Below, one piece after another: positions 904 through 40,415 of a stretch of DNA of 43,884 bases. This DNA is from Verrucomicrobiota bacterium (GTDB lineage Bacteria > Verrucomicrobiota > Verrucomicrobiia > Limisphaerales > JAEYXS01), in NCBI GenBank assembly GCA_030834415.1, contig JAURFH010000005.1:1-43884 (forward strand). The letters run 5' to 3'. The translations under genes and the position numbers were made by a program. The notes under the pieces were generated by a model, which saw only the letters and a program-made list of their open reading frames with translations, was not told the DNA's origin and made no database searches. How positions within the stretch are numbered: position 1 is the stretch's first letter; every line of letters starts with the position of its first letter.

Positions 904-2469
904 TTATCGGCTGATGGGGGGTGGGTTGTTGGTGTTAGGCGTGAGGGTGAGGTTCAAGAAACTGGAAAAAGCGGCGGCCGGGTCATTGGCTGCAACTTGT
1001 GCGGGCAGGTAAACTGTGAGCATCTCGTGTCCGCGTTGGCGGTAGGCTTCTTTGAGCAACTGCAAGCGGGACCAGCGCGAGGTGGTCAACTGGGTGGCGG
1101 CAGGTTTCAACGAGGCGCCCCGCCATGTCGCCTGAAAGACGGCCTGCCGGTCACTGTCTTGCTCGAAGTATCCCAAGGTGCCGACGATTTGATTGGTGCC
1201 CACGCTTAGCTCAAGGGTAGTAGGATTACCCATCGCTTTCCAGCCGGCGTTGGGGAGACATATCTGGGCGCTGTGGCCGAAAGCCTGACTCGGAATAGTG
1301 CGGTCAGCCGACCAGAACATGTGCACGATGTAGGCTGGGATGCTAAGGTCACGCTTGAACAACCAGGCACCACCTTCGGTGAATTGCAGCAGACGTTGTT
1401 CCTCGCGCGTGAATGTATCTGCCCGCACGGACCAGCCCGGAGGAGGTGGATCGGTGCGAACAAGCCAATGAGGGGAATCTAGCACATCCCGACTGGACCC
1501 GGCCACTGCTGTCCAGAGGAGCATACTCAGCAAGGGCAAGATGAGCACGGCTACCAAGATCACGCCAGAGTGTTTGAGTGGAGTCTGAGGCACGGCAGCT
1601 TTGGCTCCAGATGTGTCCGCCGTCTCAAGGCGAGGGCGCATGCACCAAGCCAACAACCCAAGGGTTAGAAAAATTCCCGTGCTGGCCCACATGCCCACCG
1701 GGTCGTGGGCCTTCTCAAATCCTGCCTGCCCTTGTTGCTGCACCGCTTTGGTAAGCACGATGATGCGGATGACATTACCAATCACGGCCGTGCCGAGTCC
1801 TGCACTGACCAAAACTAATCGGCGCCATGGCGTCAGACGCAAGTAAGCCCCCAGAAAAACGGAAGCCATCAGACTCGAAAGCAATGATTGAATGCCGCTA
1901 CAGGCTTCATCGATGCCCACGAGACCATTGCTCAACTCGATGACGTTGCCACGTTGCAAGCAGGGGATGCCGAGCCAGTTCAGGCAATCCACTGCGATAC
2001 GGGTAGCGACGGCTAACAAGCCATTCGTGAGTGTACCTTCGACCAATGATGGCCAGGGCACGGCGAGTGCCAGAAAAAGGACGGGAACCACCAAGGCACG
2101 CAGCCAGTGGCGTCCACCCCAACTCAACAAAATGCCGAATGTCAAACCAGTGGCTCCCAGTTGTAATAACCAGCCGCTCAATCGCCAGAATGGGTCTGCT
2201 TGCCGGATGAACTCTCCTGCGAAAAGTGGGATGAGAGAGAGACCGCACAGAAGCTTGCCGGTTTTCTGTGCAGTTGAATCAGGGATGCGTGAACCGTGGA
2301 AACTGATCAGCCGGCTCCAGCACAGCATGAGGGCTAGGAAGGGGACGGCGTAGCCGTATTCATACTGCGGGTTCAGTTTCCATTCGATGGCCAGATGAGA
2401 CCAGGTCCATAACCAAGCGGCGGCGATTGCCGCCAAGGCGGGCCATGACTGTCGCAGCATTGGGTTCAT
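904..2469 (-). CDS. Exosortase with fused C-terminal EpsI-like domain
   Basis: 521 aa, multiple TM segments, exosortase catalytic motifs EACSGIQSL (Cys), NVIRI (Arg) and FEKAHDPVG (His), followed by an EpsI-like soluble C-terminal region. Confidence 0.88.
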   Translation of the reverse strand: MNPMLRQSWPALAAIAAAWLWTWSHLAIEWKLNPQYEYGYAVPFLALMLCWSRLISFHGSRIPDSTAQKTGKLLCGLSLIPLFAGEFIRQADPFWRLSGWLLQLGATGLTFGILLSWGGRHWLRALVVPVLFLALAVPWPSLVEGTLTNGLLAVATRIAVDCLNWLGIPCLQRGNVIELSNGLVGIDEACSGIQSLLSSLMASVFLGAYLRLTPWRRLVLVSAGLGTAVIGNVIRIIVLTKAVQQQGQAGFEKAHDPVGMWASTGIFLTLGLLAWCMRPRLETADTSGAKAAVPQTPLKHSGVILVAVLILPLLSMLLWTAVAGSSRDVLDSPHWLVRTDPPPPGWSVRADTFTREEQRLLQFTEGGAWLFKRDLSIPAYIVHMFWSADRTIPSQAFGHSAQICLPNAGWKAMGNPTTLELSVGTNQIVGTLGYFEQDSDRQAVFQATWRGASLKPAATQLTTSRWSRLQLLKEAYRQRGHEMLTVYLPAQVAANDPAAAFSSFLNLTLTPNTNNPPPISR

Positions 2470-4193
2470 TTGGCAGCTTTGTTCAAGGCAGCCTGCAGCA
2501 ATTCTTTCTCTTCCGGCAGGCTGTCTTCAGCTTTGCGTCCCAGTTCCAAAAAAGGGCGGGCTTCTTTTTCCCGTCCCGCCTCGGCGAGCAGGATGCCCCA
2601 GTAGGCGGCCATAGCTGGAATCTTTTTGATCTCCGGAGACAGCTTGTCCATGAGGACCACGGCTTCGCTCAACTTGCCTTCTTCGCGAAGGGAAAAAGCA
2701 TAGGTGGAGATGGCGGCCGGATCATTAGGGTGCTGCTCATAATTTACCCGGGCCAGTTCTTTGGCTTTCGGTAGGTTCTGCCCCAGCAGCAAACTGAGCA
2801 TGGCGTAGTTGTTCTTGATGACCGGGTCCTCTGGTAACAACTCGGTGATCAGTTCAGTGACGCGTAATAAACGGCGGCTGTCGCCAGTGTTGTGGTAGAT
2901 CTTGTGCAATGCTTTCAGGGCGGGAATGCGTCCGGTTTCGCCGCGCGCCAGCACCCACCAAATCTCCTCGGCCTCGGAGTTCCACTCCCAGCCTTGGGCC
3001 AGCTTTGCCAGCAAGCTGCGGCTATGAGGGTCGATGCCGACGGAGGCCATAGCCTGTCGCCAAGAGCTGCGGGAAGATCCCCAGAGGTTCATTTCGCGTT
3101 GGGCACGCGCTTGAAAGGCAAGACGCAAGAAATCCAGTTCCTGCCAGTTGCTCTTGGCCGCCAGAGGTAACAGTTCTTCCCATTTCTTGAGCTGGGTAAG
3201 AGACTCGGCATAGGCCAGTCCCATGGCCGGTGAAATCCGGTCCTTATCCGGTAAGGTGGCTACCCAGTCGTATGCTTCTTGCGAGAGTCCACGTGAGTTG
3301 AGCCATGCGACGAGTTCAGAGGCATTCAGGATTTCTTTCCGGGCGATCTCCTTTGTGGTGGCGAGTTTGGTGGCGAAACGCTTGTCTTTGCTTTGTCGCA
3401 GCAGATCCAGATACAAAAGCCGATCAGTGAATCTCGCTCCGGGCATCTGCATGATCTTGAGGGCGAACTCAAGTTGCTTGGGCACGTTCTTTTGACGTAA
3501 GTAATCGGCCAGTAAGGCCATGGCTGCTTCCCGGCCCAGTATGGGATCACTGGTCAGTTTTTCCAAAGTTGCCCGTGAATCACGGACGATCTGCGGCTGC
3601 GCTGATAGTAAGCGGATGGAAGCCAGGTTCAGTTGCTCTTGCGAGCCATCGGGATTCAGCTTGAGCGCTTTTGCGAAATGATACTCTGCCGCCTGATACT
3701 TCCGTATCTGGATGGCCAAAGCCCCGGCCAGCCGATGGTAATCCAGACCATCTTGCTGCGCCTTGGGAAATCGTTGCAACACCTGGTCGGCGTCAATGAG
3801 TTCATTCTGCCGCAATGCGCTTCTGGCCCACATGACCAGATTGGTGATATTGCCGGGTTCCAGATCGGCCAGCCGGTGCATCCACTGCAAGGAAGCTGGG
3901 GAGTTGAACCGGTCGGCTTGCAGGGCGAGCATCCGAACGGCTTCCAGATTTTCCGGGTTTAACTGCAGTACGCGTCGTAAGGTAAGAATCTCGCTGCGGT
4001 AATCGCCTTTGGCATCGAATTCCTTCGCCTGGGCCAGCAGATGTTTCTGCTGTTCCAGTTCATATTTTTTGGAGCCCCAGCCGCGACCGAATATGAGGGC
4101 TAGAATGACCAGCAAGCCGAGGATGACCCAAAGCGGTCGAATGCCGGCAATTCGCCAGAGGCTCGGCGGTTTTTGATCCTGATGTGTTGGCAT
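2466..4193 (-). CDS. Membrane-anchored TPR-repeat protein, likely exosortase-system associated
   Basis: 575 aa, N-terminal TM helix, repeated TPR-like units; its stop overlaps the exosortase start by 4 nt. Confidence 0.75.
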   Translation of the reverse strand: MPTHQDQKPPSLWRIAGIRPLWVILGLLVILALIFGRGWGSKKYELEQQKHLLAQAKEFDAKGDYRSEILTLRRVLQLNPENLEAVRMLALQADRFNSPASLQWMHRLADLEPGNITNLVMWARSALRQNELIDADQVLQRFPKAQQDGLDYHRLAGALAIQIRKYQAAEYHFAKALKLNPDGSQEQLNLASIRLLSAQPQIVRDSRATLEKLTSDPILGREAAMALLADYLRQKNVPKQLEFALKIMQMPGARFTDRLLYLDLLRQSKDKRFATKLATTKEIARKEILNASELVAWLNSRGLSQEAYDWVATLPDKDRISPAMGLAYAESLTQLKKWEELLPLAAKSNWQELDFLRLAFQARAQREMNLWGSSRSSWRQAMASVGIDPHSRSLLAKLAQGWEWNSEAEEIWWVLARGETGRIPALKALHKIYHNTGDSRRLLRVTELITELLPEDPVIKNNYAMLSLLLGQNLPKAKELARVNYEQHPNDPAAISTYAFSLREEGKLSEAVVLMDKLSPEIKKIPAMAAYWGILLAEAGREKEARPFLELGRKAEDSLPEEKELLQAALNKAAK

Positions 4194-4334
4194 TTACAAA
4201 CCCGTTTCGGCCAACATACTGCGAAACGGGGCGAAGGCCAATGAAGTTTGCAAGCCGGGCAATTCACTAAAAGCGAAGGCCTCGACAGTCTTTACGGATT
4301 GATTGCCGTGGCGAAACCGCGGAGTGGCTGAGAC

Positions 4335-5798
4335 TTACTTTGCTGCGGCCAAATCCTCCCGGCGTTGGGCCAGACTCTTGAAGAACTCCGCGCCTTCACG
4401 CATCCTGCGTTTGAAGACGTCTTTGTCCTCAAGCATAGTCTTGAAGATGCGCCATGAGGGAGTGCGCGGGATGAGCAGCTTGCCGAAACGGTTGAAGTAA
4501 TAGCGTTCGTAGAAATCTTCCAGCGAGTTAAAGATCTCCTCTTTGCTCAGGCTGGGATATTCCAAGGTGCTTTGCTGGAATCCATCCGTCTCGACCAGGT
4601 CGGTCTTGTCCTTTTTGACGAACCAGCTGTTCATCTTGGCCATCTCGTAAAGCTCGGTGCCAGGGTAGGGGGCAGCGAGGGAGACTTGGAGGCTGAACAC
4701 ATCCAGTTCCTTGGCGAAGTTGATGGTGGTTTCGATGGTCTCGCGCGTCTCCACCGGCAGACCCAAGATGAACGTGCCGTGAATGACTACGCCTGCCTTA
4801 TGACAAGCTTTGGTGAAGCGACGCATCTCATCCGTGGTGACGCCCTTCTTGATGGTCTTGAGGATGTCATCGTTGCCTGATTCATAGCCGACCAGAAAGA
4901 GGCGCAGACCGTTGTCTTTGAAACTTTGGATGGTGTCGTAATCTAAGTTGGCGCGGCTGTTGCAGCTCCAGGTGACACCTAACTTGCCTAGTTTCTTGGC
5001 GATCTCTCGAGCTCGCGGAAGATTGGCCGTGAAGGTATCGTCATCGAAGAAGAACTCTTTCACCTGCGGAAAGAGGTCCTTCATATACGCCATCTCATCG
5101 GCCACGTTCTGCGCGCTGCGGACGCGATATTTGTGACCGCCGATCGTCTGCGGCCAAAGACAGAAAGTGCATTGGGCCGGGCAACCGCGGCCCGTGTACA
5201 TGGAGATGTAAGGGTGTTGCAGGTAGCCGATGAAGTATTTCTCGATCTGCAGATCCCGTTTGTACACATCTGCTACCCACGGTAGGACATCCATGTTCGG
5301 GATCAGTTCCCGCTCAGGATTATGCTTAATCTTGCCGTCCTTATCCTTGTAGGAGATGCCAGCTACGGTGGATAGCGCCCGACCTTCGGCGACTTCCTTG
5401 CAGGTGTAATCGAATTCTTTGCGGGCGACCCAATCAATCGCCCATGAACCTTTCAACGTTTCGGTCGGCAATACCATCGCATGTGCGCCGACGAAGCCGA
5501 CGGTAGTGCCAGGTTTCTGGTTCTTGATGGCTTCCGCGATCTTGCTGTCGTTCTTGTACGAGGGCGTCGAGGTGTTGATGATGACGTGATCGTAGTCCTT
5601 CGCGATCCTCAGGCACTCCTCCACGCCGATGTTATGCGGTGGGCAATCCAGCAACTTGGAGCCCGGTACCATGGCAGCGGGCTGGGCAAGCCAGGTGGGA
5701 TACCAGTAACTGGTCACTTCGCGACGCGCCTGATAACGCGCGCCAGCACCCCCATCAAAGCCATCAAACGAAGGAGGAGATAGAAAGAGGGCACTCAT
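4335..5798 (-). CDS. hpnJ: Hopanoid biosynthesis-associated B12-binding-type radical SAM protein HpnJ
   Basis: 487 aa; radical SAM cluster GRGCPAQCTFCLWPQTIGGHKYR; N-terminal B12-binding-like region; overall resemblance to HpnJ. Confidence 0.82.
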   Translation of the reverse strand: MSALFLSPPSFDGFDGGAGARYQARREVTSYWYPTWLAQPAAMVPGSKLLDCPPHNIGVEECLRIAKDYDHVIINTSTPSYKNDSKIAEAIKNQKPGTTVGFVGAHAMVLPTETLKGSWAIDWVARKEFDYTCKEVAEGRALSTVAGISYKDKDGKIKHNPERELIPNMDVLPWVADVYKRDLQIEKYFIGYLQHPYISMYTGRGCPAQCTFCLWPQTIGGHKYRVRSAQNVADEMAYMKDLFPQVKEFFFDDDTFTANLPRAREIAKKLGKLGVTWSCNSRANLDYDTIQSFKDNGLRLFLVGYESGNDDILKTIKKGVTTDEMRRFTKACHKAGVVIHGTFILGLPVETRETIETTINFAKELDVFSLQVSLAAPYPGTELYEMAKMNSWFVKKDKTDLVETDGFQQSTLEYPSLSKEEIFNSLEDFYERYYFNRFGKLLIPRTPSWRIFKTMLEDKDVFKRRMREGAEFFKSLAQRREDLAAAK

Positions 5799-5859
5799 GG
5801 TAGTGATGTATCGGCCAGGTTACTCAAAATGCTGTTTGCAGCCTATAAACGTAAAAAAA

Positions 5860-5885
5860 GACCCACAAGGGTTTACTTGTGGGTC
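5860..5885 (-). terminator. Intrinsic terminator downstream of hpnH
   Basis: GACCCACAAG/CTTGTGGGTC 10-bp stem, 6-nt loop, followed on the minus strand by a T7 run (TTTTTTTACG). Confidence 0.8.
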
Positions 5886-5920
5886 CTCGTTACAAATAGC
5901 TGCGAAATGTTACAGCCGGA

Positions 5921-7327
5921 TTACTTGTCCTTAGCTGCTTCAATCTTCTTCAACAAGTCATCCCGCTGCGAACTGTCGCCAGTCCCGCAACCGCCACCGG
6001 CAGTGTCGGGAACGATGTCGTTGCCGCCACGGGCAAAGGCTGATTTCGCACCAGACATCTCTTTGTTCACCGCGGCTTTCGCTTCGGCCAAGTGGCCCTT
6101 GCCGATGGAGACGCCATTGAACGCCTTCACCTTGTAGCCCTCTGCGTAAGGGGCGGGCTTGGAGCCGAAATTATACTTCATGTTAATCCACGTATCGCGC
6201 GGCTTGTTGCTCAGCGCGCCGCTCGGGTCGTAACCGCAGTGCACCATGCAATTCTCGCAACGCGGATCGCGGGCAACACCATCTACCACACCGTATTTCT
6301 CCCAATTCACGGTGCCGAGCATCTCCTGATACTTCGGGTAATGCCCGTCGGTCATGAGATAGCAGGGGGCCTTCCAGCCTTTCACATTGTATGTGGGAAT
6401 CGCCCAAGCGGTGCAGGTCAATTCACGCTTGCCAGCCAAGAACTCTTGATACACCGGGGTGCCGAAGATGGTGAACATCTCGCCCCACTTCTCGATGTCT
6501 TTGAATTTCTGGCGCGTCAGTTCGCGCGTCAGGAAGAATTCTTTCGGATCGAAACCGCGGCGGGCCACCATGTCTTTCTTGGCGGCATCGTAATCGTAAC
6601 CCGGCGAAATCGTGTGACCGTCCACATTCAAGTGGGAGAGGAACTTGAACATGTCTTCGATTTCCTGCACCTCGGTTTCCTTGTAAACAGTGGTGTTCGT
6701 GGCCACCTGGTAGCCGAGCACCTTGGCCATCTTGATGGCTGCAATACATTCCTTGAAGACACCCTCGCGTTCCACGATGAGATCGTGTGTGTATTCCAAG
6801 CCGTCCACGTGCACGTTCCAGTACATCCACTTGGTAGGCTTAATGACCACCTTCTTCTTGGCTGCTTCGTCAGACTTACGGATCTGCTCGGCTTCCTTCT
6901 CGGAGACGAGTTCGTCTTTGACGAGTTGCGCCAGCTTCGTCTCCATCTCGGGAGAGTAGTGGGCGGCCATGTAATCGCGCATCTTCTTGCGCATGAATAC
7001 ACCGTTGGTGCAGACGTAAATGATACGGCCTTGGTCGCGCAAACCTTGGATCAGCTCCTCGATCTTCGGATAGATTAGCGGCTCACCACCACAGATGGAG
7101 ACCATGGGGGCATCGCATTCAGCGGCGGCACCGAGGCATTGCTCCAACGGCACCATGTCCTTCAAGCTGGTGGAGTACTCACGGATGCGACCGCATCCGG
7201 TGCACGTCAAGTTACAGGTGTGCAACGGTTCGAGCTGCAGCACCATGGCAAATTTCGGGGTGCGGGCTAATTTATGCTTGATGATATGACGGGCAATCTT
7301 GACCGTCAGGGCCAAAGGGAAACGCAT
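5921..7327 (-). CDS. hpnH: Adenosyl-hopene transferase HpnH (radical SAM)
   Basis: 468 aa; CNLTCTGCGRIREY radical SAM motif, MVSICGGEPLIYPKI, VHVDGLEYTHD, C-terminal CENCMVHCGYDPSGA. Confidence 0.88.
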   Translation of the reverse strand: MRFPLALTVKIARHIIKHKLARTPKFAMVLQLEPLHTCNLTCTGCGRIREYSTSLKDMVPLEQCLGAAAECDAPMVSICGGEPLIYPKIEELIQGLRDQGRIIYVCTNGVFMRKKMRDYMAAHYSPEMETKLAQLVKDELVSEKEAEQIRKSDEAAKKKVVIKPTKWMYWNVHVDGLEYTHDLIVEREGVFKECIAAIKMAKVLGYQVATNTTVYKETEVQEIEDMFKFLSHLNVDGHTISPGYDYDAAKKDMVARRGFDPKEFFLTRELTRQKFKDIEKWGEMFTIFGTPVYQEFLAGKRELTCTAWAIPTYNVKGWKAPCYLMTDGHYPKYQEMLGTVNWEKYGVVDGVARDPRCENCMVHCGYDPSGALSNKPRDTWINMKYNFGSKPAPYAEGYKVKAFNGVSIGKGHLAEAKAAVNKEMSGAKSAFARGGNDIVPDTAGGGCGTGDSSQRDDLLKKIEAAKDK

Positions 7328-14512: not shown

Positions 14513-15610
14513 TTACTTCTTGTGCTCCTGAGCGTAGTGCTTGGCGAGGATGTCTTCACCGAAGTCTCCGTTGAAATCGCGCCAGACCGCATGAACGTGA
14601 TTGTTGTTGTTCTGCGTGTTGTCGTACTCGAGCAGGAAGGTCGGGCCTTGCACGCGGTAGTATTGGCCCTGGCCCTGTTCGGTGCCGCCTGCCCAAGCGA
14701 ACTGGATGGAGTCCAGACCGGCCTTCTCGATCTTGGCGAGCTCGATAGAAGAGACTTCCGGGCGCACGCGTTCCACGTAGGCCTTGATGAGGTCCATCAA
14801 CATGGTTTTCTGAGCAGCGTTCAGCTCCTTGTAGGTGATGCCTTGAGCTTCCAAAGGCTTCACCCGGCGCTCGGCGGCGGTGATTACTTCTTTCGGTGCC
14901 ACCTTGTCATAGATGGCCTTGGCCTGTTGCTTGGCGTTCAGGGATTTCAAAAGCTTCCGGCCGAGCTCTTCCTCACCACCGAGGACGCGCAGGCCTTTGC
15001 GAGGACCTTCGCGGATCTCTCCAGGGTTCGAGCCCATGAAGGATGGGGTGGGGGAAACTTTGTCGCCATCCAGCGTGAAGTTCAGGGAAAGGTGATGGCC
15101 TTCTACCCGCCAGCCCCACGCCTTAGTAGCACCAGGTGCGCCGAAGATTGTGAAGTAATACTTCTCCGGGTCGCGCTTGGGGCTCTTGTTCTCCAAGTCA
15201 TAGAGAACCTGCTCGAGGCTCATGATGGTCAACGATTGGCTGGTACCACTGGAGCTCATGCCGGAAGAGAGCAGGGCCAGTGCCAAGCGTTGCTGGGCCG
15301 GGGTCATCTCTTTAAGCGTGAGACCGTTACGGTCTTTCGGGATGAAGTGCCAGTTCTGGCGCTCATCCGATTTCAATTCATACACGGCTTTGGCCTTCTG
15401 TTCAGGCGTCAAGGCGTTGAGGAGATTGTTAGCCGCGGCGGACATCTCTTCCACCCCGGCATGCGCGGTGGAGACATGGGATAATGATCCTATTGCTACG
15501 GCGATGGCCGCAAGCAAAGACGGAAAGGACTTCACAGACTTCAAAGTGGTCATAGGGAGACGATTTGCGAGATTTGCTGCGGAGGCAATGAGAAACTTCA
15601 TTTCGCCCAA
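14513..15610 (-). CDS. DUF3500 domain secreted protein
   Basis: Signal-like N-terminus; RDPEKYYFTIFGAPG, WGWRVEGHHLSLNFTL and YDNTQNNNNHVHAVWRDFNGDFGEDILAKHY are characteristic of DUF3500. Confidence 0.85.
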   Translation of the reverse strand: MGEMKFLIASAANLANRLPMTTLKSVKSFPSLLAAIAVAIGSLSHVSTAHAGVEEMSAAANNLLNALTPEQKAKAVYELKSDERQNWHFIPKDRNGLTLKEMTPAQQRLALALLSSGMSSSGTSQSLTIMSLEQVLYDLENKSPKRDPEKYYFTIFGAPGATKAWGWRVEGHHLSLNFTLDGDKVSPTPSFMGSNPGEIREGPRKGLRVLGGEEELGRKLLKSLNAKQQAKAIYDKVAPKEVITAAERRVKPLEAQGITYKELNAAQKTMLMDLIKAYVERVRPEVSSIELAKIEKAGLDSIQFAWAGGTEQGQGQYYRVQGPTFLLEYDNTQNNNNHVHAVWRDFNGDFGEDILAKHYAQEHKK

Positions 15611-18112: not shown

Positions 18113-18250
18113 GAATTATGAATGATAGTGTACTTTGTGTTTAAATTTAGCCACCAAGGGTGATTTTAATCACTTTGTTATAGTTTTTCCGAATTTCTCT
18201 AACTTGTTTGAAATAAGGTGATTAGGATGAAATTTCCGAGATGGCGCACC

Positions 18251-18267
18251 TTGGCACCAAGGGTGCT
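18251..18267 (+). promoter_or_regulatory. Candidate sigma-54 (-24/-12) promoter of the PII-amt locus
   Basis: TTGGCACCAAGGGTGCT: GG(18253-18254)-N10-GC(18265-18266); exact TGGCAC-N6-TGCT. Confidence 0.75.
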
Positions 18268-18275
18268 TATGTAGC

Positions 18276-19054
<779 letters not shown>

Positions 19055-19077: not shown

Positions 19078-20454
19078 ATGAAACGAATTTTGACACTCTT
19101 AGCCCTTAGCGGGCTTTTTCTGGTTGGTGATCTGACCGCGCAAGATGCGGCTCCGGCCGTCACTGGCGCGGCTGTGGAAGCAGCCGCCACGGTGGCCGCT
19201 GAAGCTCCCAAGATCGACAGCGGCAACACCGCGTGGATGATCACGGCCACTGCTTTGGTCTTGTTCATGACCTTGCCGGGGCTGGCGCTTTTCTACGGTG
19301 GCTTGGTGCGGGCGAAGAATGTGCTATCCATCCTGGTGCAGTGCTTTGCGATGGCTGGAGTGATGACAATTCTATGGGTCATCTATGGCTACAGTATGGC
19401 GTTTGGCACCGGCGGAATGGAAAAGGGAGCCATCAATCTGCATACCTTTATCGGTGATGGCAGCAAACTGTTCCTCAAAGGTATCAATGCAGACTCTGTC
19501 TCGGGTAGCATTCCCGAAGCGGTCTTCCTCACGTTCCAGATGACGTTCGCGATCATCACTCCGGCGCTCATCATCGGTGCTTTCGCTGAGCGCATGAAGT
19601 TCAGCGCGATGCTGATCTTCACCACCATCTGGTTCACGCTCTCCTATCTTCCCATTTGCCATATGGCGTGGGCGGGCTCCGGGGCGTTGTTCTTTGATTG
19701 GGATGTGTTGGACTTCGCAGGTGGCACCGTGGTGCATATCAATGCCGGTATCGCTGGTCTGGTCGCCTGTATCATGTTGGGTAAACGCCGTGGCTACGGC
19801 ACGGAACCCTTGCCGCCGCATAGCGTGCCGCTGACGTTGATCGGTGCGGGCATGCTCTGGGTTGGCTGGTTCGGTTTCAATGCCGGCTCTGAGTTGGCGG
19901 CTGATGGCACGGCAGGTATGGCGATGTTGGTCACGCAAGTCGCTACGGCGATGGCGGCAGTCACCTGGATGTTCCTGGAGTGGACGCGTAGCGGCAAGCC
20001 GACGGCGGTGGGTATCGCCACAGGTGCTGTGGCTGGTTTGGTGGCTATCACTCCGGCTTCGGGCACTGCGGGCCCGATGGGGGCGTTGCTGATCGGCTTT
20101 GCTTCAGCGGTGATCTGCTATTTCTGCGCCACCAAGCTGAAACATAAGCTTGGCTACGATGACAGCCTCGATGTGTTCGGTGTGCACGGTGTCGGTGGTA
20201 TCGTGGGCGCCATCTTGACGGGCCTATGCGCGGCTGGGTTCATGGGCGGCTCCAAGGGCGACCTCAATGTTGGCCACCAGATGTTCGTCCAGTTCAAGAG
20301 CGTGGTGGTGACAATTGTCTGGAGCACGGTGGTCTCGGTGATCGCTTTGTCCATCGCCAAAGCGCTGGTCGGGCTGCGCGTCTCGCCTGAGGTTGAGAAT
20401 CAAGGTCTTGACCTGTCAGAGCACGGTGAAGAGGGCTATCACCAGCGGGGCTAA
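19078..20454 (+). CDS. amtB: Ammonium transporter
   Basis: Signal peptide; LPGLALFYGGLVRAKNVLS, FDWDVLDFAGGTVVHINAGIAGL, DVFGVHGVGGIVGAILTG. Confidence 0.96.
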   Translation: MKRILTLLALSGLFLVGDLTAQDAAPAVTGAAVEAAATVAAEAPKIDSGNTAWMITATALVLFMTLPGLALFYGGLVRAKNVLSILVQCFAMAGVMTILWVIYGYSMAFGTGGMEKGAINLHTFIGDGSKLFLKGINADSVSGSIPEAVFLTFQMTFAIITPALIIGAFAERMKFSAMLIFTTIWFTLSYLPICHMAWAGSGALFFDWDVLDFAGGTVVHINAGIAGLVACIMLGKRRGYGTEPLPPHSVPLTLIGAGMLWVGWFGFNAGSELAADGTAGMAMLVTQVATAMAAVTWMFLEWTRSGKPTAVGIATGAVAGLVAITPASGTAGPMGALLIGFASAVICYFCATKLKHKLGYDDSLDVFGVHGVGGIVGAILTGLCAAGFMGGSKGDLNVGHQMFVQFKSVVVTIVWSTVVSVIALSIAKALVGLRVSPEVENQGLDLSEHGEEGYHQRG

Positions 20455-20556: not shown

Positions 20557-21387
20557 TCAGTTGATGCGGATCACCAAAGCGGTCGTGTTGTCGCGACCGC
20601 TGTTTCGCAAGGATTCTTCGACCAGCAATCTGGCGGGACCGCGTTCATCCTCGGAGCGTAATAGCTCGATGAGGTGGTGATCGTAGAGGCCATCGATCAA
20701 TCCGTCCGAACAGATGAGGAAGTTATCGCCCGGCTCATAGCCTACGGCCCCCACTTGCGGATCGACGAACATATTGCCGCCACCAAGAGCTTTCTGGAGC
20801 ACGTTACGTTGAGGGTGATTGCGGGCTTCACGGTCATTGATTTTGCCGTTGCGCAGAAGCCAGCCCACATGCGTGTCATCGTGCGTAAGCTGTTTCACTG
20901 CGTCTTCCCGCTTGGGCAGATAATAGATGCGGCTGTCACCGATGTGGCCAAAGTACATCCACTCGGGGCTGAACCAGCAGAGGCTGAGCGTGGTCTCCAT
21001 GCCTCGGCATTCATCATAGCTGTCGCCAAGGAATTTTAGGGCGCGATGGGTCTGGGCGTAGAGCTCGGTGAGCACATCACCAAATCCGGTGGACAAACCC
21101 AAGGCAGATTGTTGGAAAGAGCGTGGGAGGAGCGTGGTGATTTTGTCCACTGCGATCCGGCTGGCGTATTCTCCGGCCATCGCGCCGCCCATGCCGTCAC
21201 TCACGGCGAAAACATAATCATACTCCGCATTGGTGCCCTCGCCATACTTGCCGAGGCGATGGACTTCCCGGGCATCGAACTGTAGGCCCAGAAAGGAATC
21301 CTCATTGTTCTTGCGGACTTTTCCGACATCGGAGAGACCCCACCAACTAAACTTGCAAGGAGAGGCTGCGCGGCTGACAGGATTCAT
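20557..21387 (-). CDS. PP2C-family protein serine/threonine phosphatase
   Basis: SDVGKVRKNNEDSFLG, FAVSDGMGGAMAGEYAS, NFLICSDGLIDGL, SGRDNTTALVIRI. Confidence 0.93.
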   Translation of the reverse strand: MNPVSRAASPCKFSWWGLSDVGKVRKNNEDSFLGLQFDAREVHRLGKYGEGTNAEYDYVFAVSDGMGGAMAGEYASRIAVDKITTLLPRSFQQSALGLSTGFGDVLTELYAQTHRALKFLGDSYDECRGMETTLSLCWFSPEWMYFGHIGDSRIYYLPKREDAVKQLTHDDTHVGWLLRNGKINDREARNHPQRNVLQKALGGGNMFVDPQVGAVGYEPGDNFLICSDGLIDGLYDHHLIELLRSEDERGPARLLVEESLRNSGRDNTTALVIRIN

Positions 21388-21399
21388 GCGGTGGCGATA

Positions 21400-21783
21400 T
21401 TATTTCGGGTCGGGGAGGATTGTGGCGAATTCGAAATCAATCAAACAGAATCGGCCATCCGATTGGCGGTAGGTGACATTGCGCATCTCAGCGTCATCAT
21501 GCCGCACCCCATACGGCAGCAGTTCGGCGAAGAGTTCCGCAGTGCGTTTCGGATCCAGGTGCTGCACTCGTTCCCCGCAATTGGTCGTGACGATGGTAAG
21601 GGTCTCATCCCGGGCTTCTAGCAGCTTGGGGACGAAAGGGCAGCCGCGTTCCTCCAGATGGCGGAGGACCTTGACCTCGTTGTCATACCTCTCTTTGGCT
21701 TTGGGGCCTTGGAACTTTTTTATAACGCGTCCATCAAAAGTGAGTTTGACCGTGGACCGTAGTGTGTCTTTGACTTGCAGCAT
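21400..21783 (-). CDS. Minimal kinase-fold protein (LPS-kinase/RIO/Bud32-like)
   Basis: 127 aa: RVIKKF (beta3 Lys), YDNEVKVL (alphaC Glu), GVRHDDAEMRNVTY (catalytic loop), CLIDFEFA (DFG-like). Confidence 0.6.
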   Translation of the reverse strand: MLQVKDTLRSTVKLTFDGRVIKKFQGPKAKERYDNEVKVLRHLEERGCPFVPKLLEARDETLTIVTTNCGERVQHLDPKRTAELFAELLPYGVRHDDAEMRNVTYRQSDGRFCLIDFEFATILPDPK

Positions 21784-21966: not shown

Positions 21967-21984
21967 GTGGTTAAAAATAGCCAC
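21967..21984. promoter_or_regulatory. Candidate upstream activator dyad for GSII
   Basis: GTGGTTAAAAATAGCCAC; 15/18 identical to GTGTTTAAATTTAGCCAC at 18137-18154. Confidence 0.45.
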
Positions 21985-22115
21985 AATGATTAAATGAATT
22001 CATGAAATTCATGTATTGCATGAAGTGTATAGATTGCTTGGCGCTAATGTTTTGCGTTCGTTATCAAGGGTTTATGAAGAAATCGGCCGCTTTGGCAAGG
22101 CTCGAGCTTGCTAAA

Positions 22116-22131
22116 TGGCACTCTACCTGCT
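22116..22131 (+). promoter_or_regulatory. Candidate sigma-54 (-24/-12) promoter of GSII
   Basis: TGGCACTCTACCTGCT: GG-N10-GC spacing; exact TGGCAC-N6-TGCT; about 76 nt upstream of the ATG. Confidence 0.75.
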
Positions 22132-22206
22132 CAGCTTTAAACGCACTGGACACACTGTAGCATTCTGCTCAGTCAAACCGGACTAAACACATATACCTCC
22201 ATACAC

Positions 22207-23229
22207 ATGGCGAAATATAAGTTGGAATATCTCTGGCTCGACGGCTACCGGCCGGTTCCTAACCTCCGTGGCAAAACTCAAATCAAGGAATACAGCAGCT
22301 TTCCCAAGCTCGAAGAACTGCCGATGTGGGGCTTCGATGGCAGCTCGACCCGGCAGGCAGAAGGCAGAAGCTCTGACTGCATGCTCAAGCCAGTGGCTGT
22401 CTACCCTGACACCACCCGCAAGAACGGCGTATTGGTGATGTGCGAAGTCATGATGCCCGATGGCACGACTCCGCATCCTTCCAATGGCCGCGCTAACATT
22501 CCTGATGATCCGGGTGCCTGGTTCGGCTTCGAGCAGGAATACTTCCTCTATAAAGATGGCAAACCCTTGGGCTTCCCGTCCACCGGCTTCCCTTATCCGC
22601 AGGGTCTCTACTACACGGGTGTCGGCTATGACTCCGTGGGTGATATCGCCCGTGAGATCGTCGAGAAGCACCTCGACCTCTGCCTCGACGCTGGCATCAA
22701 CCACGAAGGTATCAACGCCGAAGTGGCGAAGGGCCAGTGGGAATTCCAAATCTTCGGCAAAGGCTCCAAGAACGCTGCCGACCAAGTCTGGGTTGCCCGC
22801 TACCTCATGATGCGCCTGTGCGAGAAATACGGCGTGGACGTGAACTGGCACTGCAAACCGCTTGGCTTGGAAGTGGACTGGAACGGTTCCGGTATGCACT
22901 CCAACTTCTCCACCGAGTATATGCGTACGGTCGGCGGCAAGGAATACTTCGAAGCGCTGATGGCTGCGTTCGACAAATACAAGAACGAGCACATCGCCGT
23001 TTACGGTCCGGACAACCACATGCGCTTAACCGGTCTGCATGAGACGCAGTCCATCGACAAGTTTAACTACGGTGTGGCCAACCGCGGTGCTTCTATCCGC
23101 GTGCCGCACAGCTTCGTGAACAACGGCTACAAGGGCTACTTGGAAGACCGTCGTCCGAACTCCCAAGGCGATCCGTACCAGATCGCTGGTCGCATCCTGC
23201 AAACGATCGCGACGGTGCCGACTCCTTAA
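22207..23229 (+). CDS. glnA: Glutamine synthetase, eukaryotic-type GSII
   Basis: YLWLDGYRPVPNLRGKT, WGFDGSSTRQAEGRSSDC, GFEQEYFLY, NWHCKPLGLEVDWNGSGMHSNFST, NRGASIRVPHSFVNNGYKGYLEDRRPNSQGDPY. Confidence 0.94.
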   Translation: MAKYKLEYLWLDGYRPVPNLRGKTQIKEYSSFPKLEELPMWGFDGSSTRQAEGRSSDCMLKPVAVYPDTTRKNGVLVMCEVMMPDGTTPHPSNGRANIPDDPGAWFGFEQEYFLYKDGKPLGFPSTGFPYPQGLYYTGVGYDSVGDIAREIVEKHLDLCLDAGINHEGINAEVAKGQWEFQIFGKGSKNAADQVWVARYLMMRLCEKYGVDVNWHCKPLGLEVDWNGSGMHSNFSTEYMRTVGGKEYFEALMAAFDKYKNEHIAVYGPDNHMRLTGLHETQSIDKFNYGVANRGASIRVPHSFVNNGYKGYLEDRRPNSQGDPYQIAGRILQTIATVPTP

Positions 23230-33528: not shown

Positions 33529-33544
33529 TGGAAAGGAATACCCC

Positions 33545-33712
33545 ACCTCTGCCGTGTGGAACGGTACCTATGAACTGCCCTGATATAGGTGGGACCGAAT
33601 CTTAGGTGTCCGACGTCCAATAAAGGCCTGTCGTTAACCTTGGAAGTTAAGGCCCCGCATTGATTAATTACGGTCCAAGGACTTTGTTGCGCAATCACGA
33701 ACAGCGCAGGGT
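33545..33712. ncRNA. Candidate structured RNA (6S-like?) upstream of rarA; strand unresolved
   Basis: Long-range complementary segments: ACC(T)CTGCCGTG (33545-33556) with CACG..GCAGGGT (33696-33712); GGACCGAAT (33592-33600) with ATT(A)CGGTCC (33667-33676); plus local hairpins. Confidence 0.25.
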
Positions 33713-33954
33713 AAATCGTTTAAAATTGCTTCAAAGATCATCGGTGGCGCACCACCAGTTTCTGGTCGGAATATCGTCCTACTAGTGGCCTGTCTCAAGT
33801 TCTTTCCGGGAAAAATTATTCACCGGCAGTTTCGCGTTGGAAGTGGCGGATGAAAAGAGTATGCTACGCGAAGTTTCACTCTGGCCCGGGTCCGCAGGCG
33901 CTGCATTTGCCGCTGACTTCGGGCGGGAAAACGATTCACGACATATTTCTTTCT

Positions 33955-38044: not shown

Positions 38045-39304
38045 TTAGGCTTTGCACGCCGCACCTTCGGCTTCCAGCAAGCCTTCGAACTCGCGGAGGC
38101 TAGGCCGGATCTCGCGGGTCTGGCCGACGTGGTTCGCCACGGCGTCGAGTGTTTTCAGACCGTTACCGGTGATGCAGAGGACGGCGGAATCTTCCGCCGG
38201 GATCTTGCCGGAGGCAATGAGTTTCTTGGCCACGCCGACGGTCACACCGCCAGCTGTCTCGGCGAAGATGCCTTCGCAATCGGCGAGCAGGCGGATGCCT
38301 TCGCGGATTTCGTCATCGGTGACGTCATCGCAGTGGCCGCCGGTGTCTTTCATCACGCGGAGGGAGTAGAAACCATCTGCCGGGGTGCCGATGGCGAGTG
38401 ATTTCGCGATAGTATTCGGCTTCACCGGCTTGAAGAAGTCGAGACCGGCTTTTTGGGCCGCCGAGATGGGGTTGCAACCCGTGGCCTGGGCACCATGGAC
38501 TTTCCATTTGGTGTTCGGCACGAGGCCGAGCTTGGAGAATTCCTGATAGCTCTTGTGAATCTTGGTGAGCAGCGAACCGGACGCCATGGGGATGACGGTG
38601 TGCTGCGGGATGCGCCAGCCGAGCTGTTCCTGCACCTCGAAGCCCAAGCTCTTGGAGCCTTCGGCGTAGTAGGGGCGCATGTTGACGTTCACGAACGCCC
38701 AGCCGTACTTGCCGGCGATCTCGGCGCAGAGACGGTTCACTTCATCGTAGTGACCCTTGATGCCGATGACATTTGCGCCGTAAACGAGCGAGTTGACGAC
38801 CTTACCCTGTTCGAGATCGGCAGGAATGAAGACGTAAGCCTTCAGACCAGCGGAGGCTGCATTGGCGGCGACAGAGTTCGCCAGGTTACCGGTGGAGGCA
38901 CAGGCGACCGTGGTAAAACCGAGCTCAACGGCGCGGCTCAGGGCGACGCTGACCACACGGTCCTTGAAGGACAAGGTGGGGTAGTTCACGGCGTCGTTCT
39001 TGATCCACAGTTCGCGGATACCAAGGCGCTTGGCGAGGCGGTCCGCTTTGACCAGCGGCGTAAAACCGACCTGGGTGCCCACGGTGGGTTCACCGGCGAC
39101 GGGGAGCAACTCGCGATAGCGCCACATGGTCTGCGGTCGGCTCTCGATTGAGGCACGGGTGAGGGAGCCACGGATGGCTTCGTAATCGTAAACGACTTCG
39201 AGCGGACCGAAATCGAACTCGCAGACGTGGGTGGCGGTGAGGGGATACTCGTGACCGCACTCGCGGCACTTCAACGCCTTCATGAAACTTTTCTCGTTTG
39301 CCAT
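38045..39304 (-). CDS. thrC: Threonine synthase
   Basis: N-terminal CRECGHEYPL, NYPTLSFKDRVVSVALSRAVELG (PLP Lys), ACASTGNLANSVAANAASAGL. Confidence 0.92.
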   Translation of the reverse strand: MANEKSFMKALKCRECGHEYPLTATHVCEFDFGPLEVVYDYEAIRGSLTRASIESRPQTMWRYRELLPVAGEPTVGTQVGFTPLVKADRLAKRLGIRELWIKNDAVNYPTLSFKDRVVSVALSRAVELGFTTVACASTGNLANSVAANAASAGLKAYVFIPADLEQGKVVNSLVYGANVIGIKGHYDEVNRLCAEIAGKYGWAFVNVNMRPYYAEGSKSLGFEVQEQLGWRIPQHTVIPMASGSLLTKIHKSYQEFSKLGLVPNTKWKVHGAQATGCNPISAAQKAGLDFFKPVKPNTIAKSLAIGTPADGFYSLRVMKDTGGHCDDVTDDEIREGIRLLADCEGIFAETAGGVTVGVAKKLIASGKIPAEDSAVLCITGNGLKTLDAVANHVGQTREIRPSLREFEGLLEAEGAACKA

Positions 39305-39649
39305 ATCGCTTCTATTCTTCGGCCGGGGAGGGGCAAACAAAAACCCCTTCCCGAGGTTGCGAGAAGAGGTGAAATCTAGTTCTGGTGCTCTTCTCATTTT
39401 TCCCGAAACGCACTGCGCTTCGAGCTGGATTTAGCACCTGACGTTGAATTGCATTTCAACCGGTTGCCGTGACTTCACAGGGCCAGTCCCTCAGTCACTC
39501 TGAATGAGACCGTTATATCAACGGATGCGGATATATTGATTTAAACTGTTCAACAGTCAAATGGTTTTTTCAAACACACGACGATTCTATCGTTCAAGAT
39601 GGTCTGGTTTACTCCATTATATAATACACCTTTGAGACGAAACCCAATA

Positions 39650-39665
39650 TGGCACAACTGGTGCT
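39650..39665 (+). promoter_or_regulatory. Candidate sigma-54 (-24/-12) promoter upstream of the orphan response regulator
   Basis: TGGCACAACTGGTGCT: GG(39651-39652)-N10-GC(39663-39664). Confidence 0.55.
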
Positions 39666-39917: not shown

Positions 39918-40415
39918 ATGAACCGGATACCGACAAATAATGTGGGAAATATCGCGATAAACCCCATTGGGGGAGCCAGTCGTATCGCGCAAGAGCGTAT
40001 TCCCGGCGTCTTGCTGGTGGAAGATGATCCGCATCTCATGGAGATGAACCGGCGTATCTTGCAGCGCGAGGGGTTCCGGGTCTTCGAAGCGACTTCGGAA
40101 CAATCGGCACTATGGTTGTGGCAACGACATCAGCGGGATATCGATGTGGTGTTTGCTGATGTGATGATTCCCGACCGCGCCACGGGTGTGGAACTGGTGC
40201 GCAAGTTGCGGCAGCAAAGACCTGAACTGCGGGCGGTTTATACGAGCGGGTTTGGACCAGAGGTGGCAGGACTGGATGAGCCGGATCAGGGGCCGACATG
40301 TTTCTTGCAGAAGCCTTATTCGTTGCGCCAATTGATTGATGGAATAGTGGATGCGTTGGAGAAGCCTTTGCAGACGGCGCTGACTAAGGCGGAATTGGCG
40401 CGGTGTATGGCGTAA
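39918..40415 (+). CDS. Single-domain response regulator (REC)
   Basis: GVLLVEDDPHLMEMNRRIL, DVVFADVMIPDRATGVELVRKLR, CFLQKPYSLRQLI; no output domain. Confidence 0.88.
   Translation: MNRIPTNNVGNIAINPIGGASRIAQERIPGVLLVEDDPHLMEMNRRILQREGFRVFEATSEQSALWLWQRHQRDIDVVFADVMIPDRATGVELVRKLRQQRPELRAVYTSGFGPEVAGLDEPDQGPTCFLQKPYSLRQLIDGIVDALEKPLQTALTKAELARCMA

Follow-up and report, generated by a model that had tools for sequence, protein, structure and literature searches.

A predicted sigma-54 promoter and a conserved upstream palindrome at the GSII glutamine synthetase gene of an uncultured Verrucomicrobiota bacterium

What controls the glutamine synthetase of an uncultured Verrucomicrobiota bacterium? 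The window, the whole stretch of DNA analysed here, is 43,884 nt of contig JAURFH010000005.1 (assembly GCA_030834415.1) and encodes a GSII-type glutamine synthetase (glnII-like, 340 aa) at 22207-23229 (+), recognised by Pfam models PF00120 and PF03951 and with homologues up to 94% identical. The initial annotation had placed an exact TGGCAC-N6-TGCT string some 76 nt ahead of the GSII start codon; the string is found there as TGGCACTCTACCTGCT at 22116-22131 (+), with 75 nt between it and the ATG at 22207.

On the evidence below, this string very probably belongs to a sigma-54 promoter that responds to nitrogen limitation through an NtrC-like activator at a palindrome ∼140 nt upstream. RNA polymerase carrying sigma-54 would bind 22116-22131 as a closed complex, and an NtrC-like AAA+ activator would sit ∼140 nt upstream at the palindrome (consensus TTTTGnnCAnnnTGnnCAAAA, here 21974-21994). 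Under nitrogen limitation, the activator would loop in and open the complex, and transcription would then begin near 22142. The same promoter type would drive glnK-amtB, the second GSII gene of the genome and further ammonium-transporter operons. Comparison at the level of sequence establishes the promoter element and its conservation, shows that RpoN and activators are encoded, and reveals a conserved upstream palindrome; we infer the GSII start site, the nitrogen response and the identity of the activator that binds.

The promoter element of the GSII gene

Sigma-54 promoters as a class have a GG and a GC dinucleotide 12 bp apart, in the context TGGCAC-N5-TTGCW. The GSII element has its GG at 22117-22118 and its GC at 22129-22130, which is the exact -24/-12 spacing, and differs from TGGCACNNNNNTTGCW by one mismatch. 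Taking C 22130 as -12, the spacing rule for -24/-12 promoters puts the predicted transcription start at 22142 (+). An Rfam search of the GSII leader returned no riboswitch at gathering scores. The surroundings of the element have recurrent features of their own: a CTTGC box (window 22107-22111) lies 5-9 nt upstream of the TGGCA in about half of GSII promoters, and a PP2C phosphatase and a small kinase-like gene run divergently from GSII (window 20557-21783, -), the start of the divergent gene at 21783 being kept beside GSII in 39 loci.

Conservation was assessed in 98 GSII loci with usable upstream sequence, counting as a site any match to at least nine of the ten defining positions of TGGCAC-N6-TGCT. 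Such a site lies 67-196 nt (median 104) before the ATG in 89 of the 98 homologues, those of Bradyrhizobium and Phyllobacterium included, against an expectation of 0.36 and a maximum of 2 in shuffled upstream sequences. The other ORF starts in the same loci have a site in only 3 of 272 cases. Among the GSII sites, the six spacer positions vary, and the GG, C, T, GC and T are almost invariant. In a cultured relative, Chthoniobacter flavus Ellin428, the site precedes the GSII ATG by 123 nt.

Could the match at 22116 still be a coincidence with no promoter function? The raw string would allow it, with 13 exact matches in the whole 4.5-Mb genome against 15 for the reversed control pattern, and, within the window, one match in four falls inside a gene. 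The string is thus not over-represented genome-wide, and it is its position that is unusual. Four of the 13 matches sit in the window, which is 1% of the genome. However, a chance match would not account for fixed bases kept in 89 of 98 homologues, around a spacer that varies and at a set distance before the ATG, and coincidence has a negligible probability. The assignment of 22116-22131 as the sigma-54 (RpoN) promoter of the GSII gene is well supported by the exact match, the homologues and the matrix score described below.

The cognate sigma factor is encoded in the genome by a single rpoN (PF04552 on contig C384, E 2e-58). In the order, 40 genomes were searched and 38 have RpoN; the other two are assemblies of 76% and 83% completeness.

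Sites across the genome and a nitrogen-assimilation regulon

A matrix trained on the GSII sites of other genomes, with those of this genome left out, was used to scan 1.80 Mb, or 40%, of the genome; the search for the exact pattern extended over the full 4.5 Mb. The element at 22116 has the best matrix score in the 1.8 Mb scanned. Eight of the 13 matches of at least 15 bits lie outside ORFs, against none of 13 for the reversed matrix, in a sample of which 94% is ORF, so the motif is not equally common in coding sequence, the outcome by which the initial annotation would have been refuted.

The intergenic targets of the matrix include GSII, glnK-amtB (18252), an amtB-glnK operon on contig C12 (4378) and a DUF4388/amt cluster on the same contig (6959), together with dnaK (C85) and a pilin-like operon (C451). 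The genome's other GSII gene (C215) is also preceded by the exact motif; the ORF calling labelled this site as coding, since the gene's reading frame continues without a stop codon ahead of the ATG. A further match near rpoN (C384:21565) resembles a terminator hairpin, GCACG-CCC-CGTGC-TTTTT, and is not counted as a promoter. As a separate observation, the dnaK site is a strong sigma-54 element 51 nt before the gene (L191:1087), suggesting sigma-54 control of this chaperone. Such control would fit the sigma-54 regulation of chaperone genes described for Planctomycetota and Bacteroidota in a cross-phylum survey (PMC12316311).

Within the window, three occurrences of the string had been noticed initially; the count is four exact matches (15270-, 18252+, 22116+ and 39650+), for a chance level of 0.13 on average and at most 1 in 100 dinucleotide shuffles. 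Three are intergenic, ahead of GSII, glnK-amtB and a response-regulator gene. The fourth, at 15270-15285 (-), was found by pattern search within the coding sequence of a DUF3500 gene (14513-15610) and is judged a chance match. The element of the glnK-amtB operon, TGGCACCAAGGGTGCT at 18252-18267 (+), is identified by exact match, matrix score and comparison of glnK loci; it precedes glnK, which encodes the PII protein (18716-19054, +; homologues in 40 of 40 relatives), and the ammonium transporter gene amtB (19078-20454, +; PF00909, E 4e-116). The element at 39650-39665 (+), TGGCACAACTGGTGCT, lies 268 nt before the gene of a single-domain response-regulator receiver protein of 165 aa (39918-40415, +; PF00072). 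It is probably a genuine promoter, since orthologues in both same-genus relatives are preceded at similar distances by corresponding sites, TGGCATGGCCGCTGCT and TGGCATGGGCAGTGCT.

The association of the motif with ammonium-assimilation loci thus stands for GSII and glnK-amtB, but not for 39650, which belongs to the response regulator, or for the coding match at 15270. The coordinated nitrogen regulon that had been suggested gains support from comparative genomics: sites occur before 89 of 98 GSII genes, in most relatives upstream of glnK, before the second GSII gene and before two further ammonium-transporter operons. The element is common to glutamine synthetase, PII and ammonium-transporter genes, the membership by which an NtrC regulon is recognised, and the shared promoter type on these genes supports their reading as a predicted nitrogen-assimilation regulon.

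Several other features were recorded along the way. Of 24 glnK promoters, 9 have an ATG or GTG exactly 24-25 nt downstream of the first base of the sigma-54 element, roughly where transcription is predicted to start (examples are window 18276 and L155:4402 on C12); other positions mostly have 0-2 cases. The frames that follow are not conserved between genomes; the pattern might reflect leaderless leader ORFs or a start-site preference. The leader ORF at 18276-18614 before glnK was rejected as a conserved protein; a search of 19 other genomes of the order did not find it, and its only paralogue, a weak one, precedes amtB on C12. Elsewhere in the window, a SAM-I riboswitch (Rfam RF00162, 80 bits; 39391-39510, -) lies ahead of a threonine-synthase-like PALP gene (38045-39397, -), a target that looks unusual for SAM-I; the listed ATG probably lies upstream of the actual start of this gene. 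A 6S RNA (RF00013, 60 bits) is found at 33536-33715 (-), and an exosortase-like gene and the hopanoid radical-SAM genes HpnJ and HpnH occupy 904-7327 (-).

The upstream palindrome and its candidate activator

Sigma-54 promoters of the nitrogen regulon in enterobacteria and rhizobia are activated by NtrC bound at TGCAC-N7-GTGCA boxes. The same arrangement at the verrucomicrobial GSII promoter would be in keeping with the shared -24/-12 element of Bradyrhizobium and Phyllobacterium GSII, with the NtrC regulation of rhizobial glnII and with the presence of an NtrC-like protein in this genome (see below). Yet classical boxes upstream of verrucomicrobial GSII promoters number 8 in 87 against 8.8 in shuffles, and a stricter form of the box 2 against 8.1, and it is a different palindrome that is enriched. 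The test has limited power, having given no clear boxes in six rhizobial promoters either. Activation by classical NtrC at such boxes is considered unlikely, though it is the best placed of the alternatives.

The different palindrome emerged from unsupervised motif discovery by EM. The first motif obtained, GTGTCtTTgACtTt.aGCAT, comes from the beginning of the conserved divergent gene (MLxVKDT..., window 21783) and is not regulatory. With this start masked, a second run gave ATTTTGnnCAgcnTGanCAAAt...CAG, with a log-likelihood of 391 against 145-158 in shuffles. Its first 21-23 positions are palindromic, with a correlation of 0.84-0.85 to the reverse complement, and yield the 21-bp consensus TTTTGnnCAnnnTGnnCAAAA, located ∼140 nt upstream of the sigma-54 element in many GSII promoters of the order. 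The palindrome scores at least 10 bits in 38 of 84 GSII promoters, against 3 for the reversed matrix, an excess that is partly built in by training on these same promoters; the fixed position and the tests on glnK and on 40 genomes are not affected in this way. For 35 of the 38 strong matches, the distance to the promoter element downstream is 125-160 nt, with most at 139-142 nt. In glnK promoters, which are outside the training set, the palindrome is present in 11 of 23 where 1.8 are expected.

Across the 40 genomes, the perfect palindrome occurs at 13 places and its control at none; a stricter pattern of palindrome plus CAG has one match. Eight of the 13 have a sigma-54-like site 120-240 nt away. 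At the threshold applied, the other five lack a neighbouring site of this kind, and some of them may have arisen by chance or serve other promoters. Genes near the 13 perfect palindromes include those for GSII, NMT1_2/NrtA-like binding proteins, an amino-acid permease, BBP2 porins and phosphofructokinase. Taken as a putative enhancer of GSII promoters distinct from the NtrC box, the conserved palindrome has support for its existence from these comparisons.

In the present genome, the copies of the palindrome are diverged, scoring 11.7 bits at GSII, 7.0 at glnK and 3.1 at the second GSII gene. The putative activator site of the window's GSII promoter, AAAATAGCCACAATGATTAAA at 21974-21994 (+), is a diverged copy of TTTTGnnCAnnnTGnnCAAAA identified by the EM motif, positional conservation and same-genus alignment; it precedes the promoter element by 142 nt, the usual distance for this palindrome, and falls within a block conserved in the genus. 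A weak putative site at 18144-18164 (+; 7.0 bits) lies 108 nt upstream of the glnK promoter element.

Which protein would recognise it? The genome encodes six strong full-length bEBPs (AAA+ sigma-54 activators), five of them with a receiver domain. For one, a REC-AAA-HTH protein on contig C442 (L198:2663-4150), the best NCBIfam model is ntrC, at 486.8 bits against a cut-off of 558.6; for the other five, the best model is one other than ntrC. Counterparts of the C442 protein, 65-89% identical, occur in 30 of 39 other genomes. A search of its gene neighbourhood found no adjacent histidine kinase, and in the GSII and glnK loci of relatives that were compared no activator gene adjoins. The C442 protein would be the best candidate activator of the GSII promoter.

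With six bEBPs in the genome, and with sigma-54 sites at dnaK and the pilin-like operon as well, a genuine sigma-54 promoter at GSII might instead be under one of the remaining five activators and answer a signal unrelated to nitrogen. The combined targets of promoter and palindrome, which are mostly nitrogen genes (GSII, glnK, NrtA-like binding proteins, amino-acid permease), speak against this, and such a signal is quite improbable. The preferred reading remains a nitrogen-limitation promoter served by an NtrC-like protein at the palindrome.

Relation to known nitrogen regulons

The enterobacterial NtrC-sigma-54 regulon of glnA p2 and glnK-amtB uses the same promoter class and likewise covers glutamine synthetase, PII and AmtB. 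The verrucomicrobial case differs in that the enzyme is GSII rather than GSI and in that TGCAC-N7-GTGCA boxes are not enriched. The closest known relative of the present promoter is that of rhizobial glnII (Bradyrhizobium japonicum and Sinorhizobium meliloti), where a homologous GSII gene has the same TGGCA[CT]-N6-TGCT ∼100 nt before the start codon. Unlike the rhizobial systems, the host here belongs to the Verrucomicrobiota, the upstream palindrome is different, and no NtrB-NtrC pair was found at the candidate activator gene. Induction by nitrogen stress has been reported for S. meliloti glnII (PMC3596328), and a 1988 paper cited in PMC4842269 deals with the control of B. japonicum glnII by NtrC.

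A 2025 reconstruction of sigma-54 regulons across phyla places glutamine synthetase, PII and ammonia permease under sigma-54; in the portion of that survey drawn on here, nitrogen targets are mainly those of Pseudomonadota, and Verrucomicrobiota are mentioned only for motility in Opitutia (PMC12316311). The verrucomicrobial methanotroph 'Ca. M. fumariolicum' is reported to have ntrB and ntrC-family genes, in a text whose portion used here contains no promoter analysis (PMC3404531). A literature search found no described sigma-54 nitrogen regulon for Verrucomicrobiota. The promoter class and the gene set are already familiar from the NtrC-sigma-54 nitrogen regulon; the lineage-specific enhancer may be new, and the palindromic activator site, apparently undescribed, is the newer part of the finding.

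For the Limisphaerales (Verrucomicrobiota subdivision 3), there is perhaps an even chance that nitrogen assimilation is controlled by a lineage-specific sigma-54 activator recognising TTTTGnnCAnnnTGnnCAAAA instead of the NtrC box, at an almost constant ∼140 nt upstream of the promoter; this activator may be the orphan REC-AAA-HTH protein of C442. Given the conserved enhancer palindrome, a simple binding test would be enough to find the activator, and scanning uncultured genomes with the promoter matrix can yield lists of candidate nitrogen-limitation genes. A predicted nitrogen regulon is defined here, at the sequence level, in a phylum of abundant and mostly uncultured bacteria of soil and fresh water.
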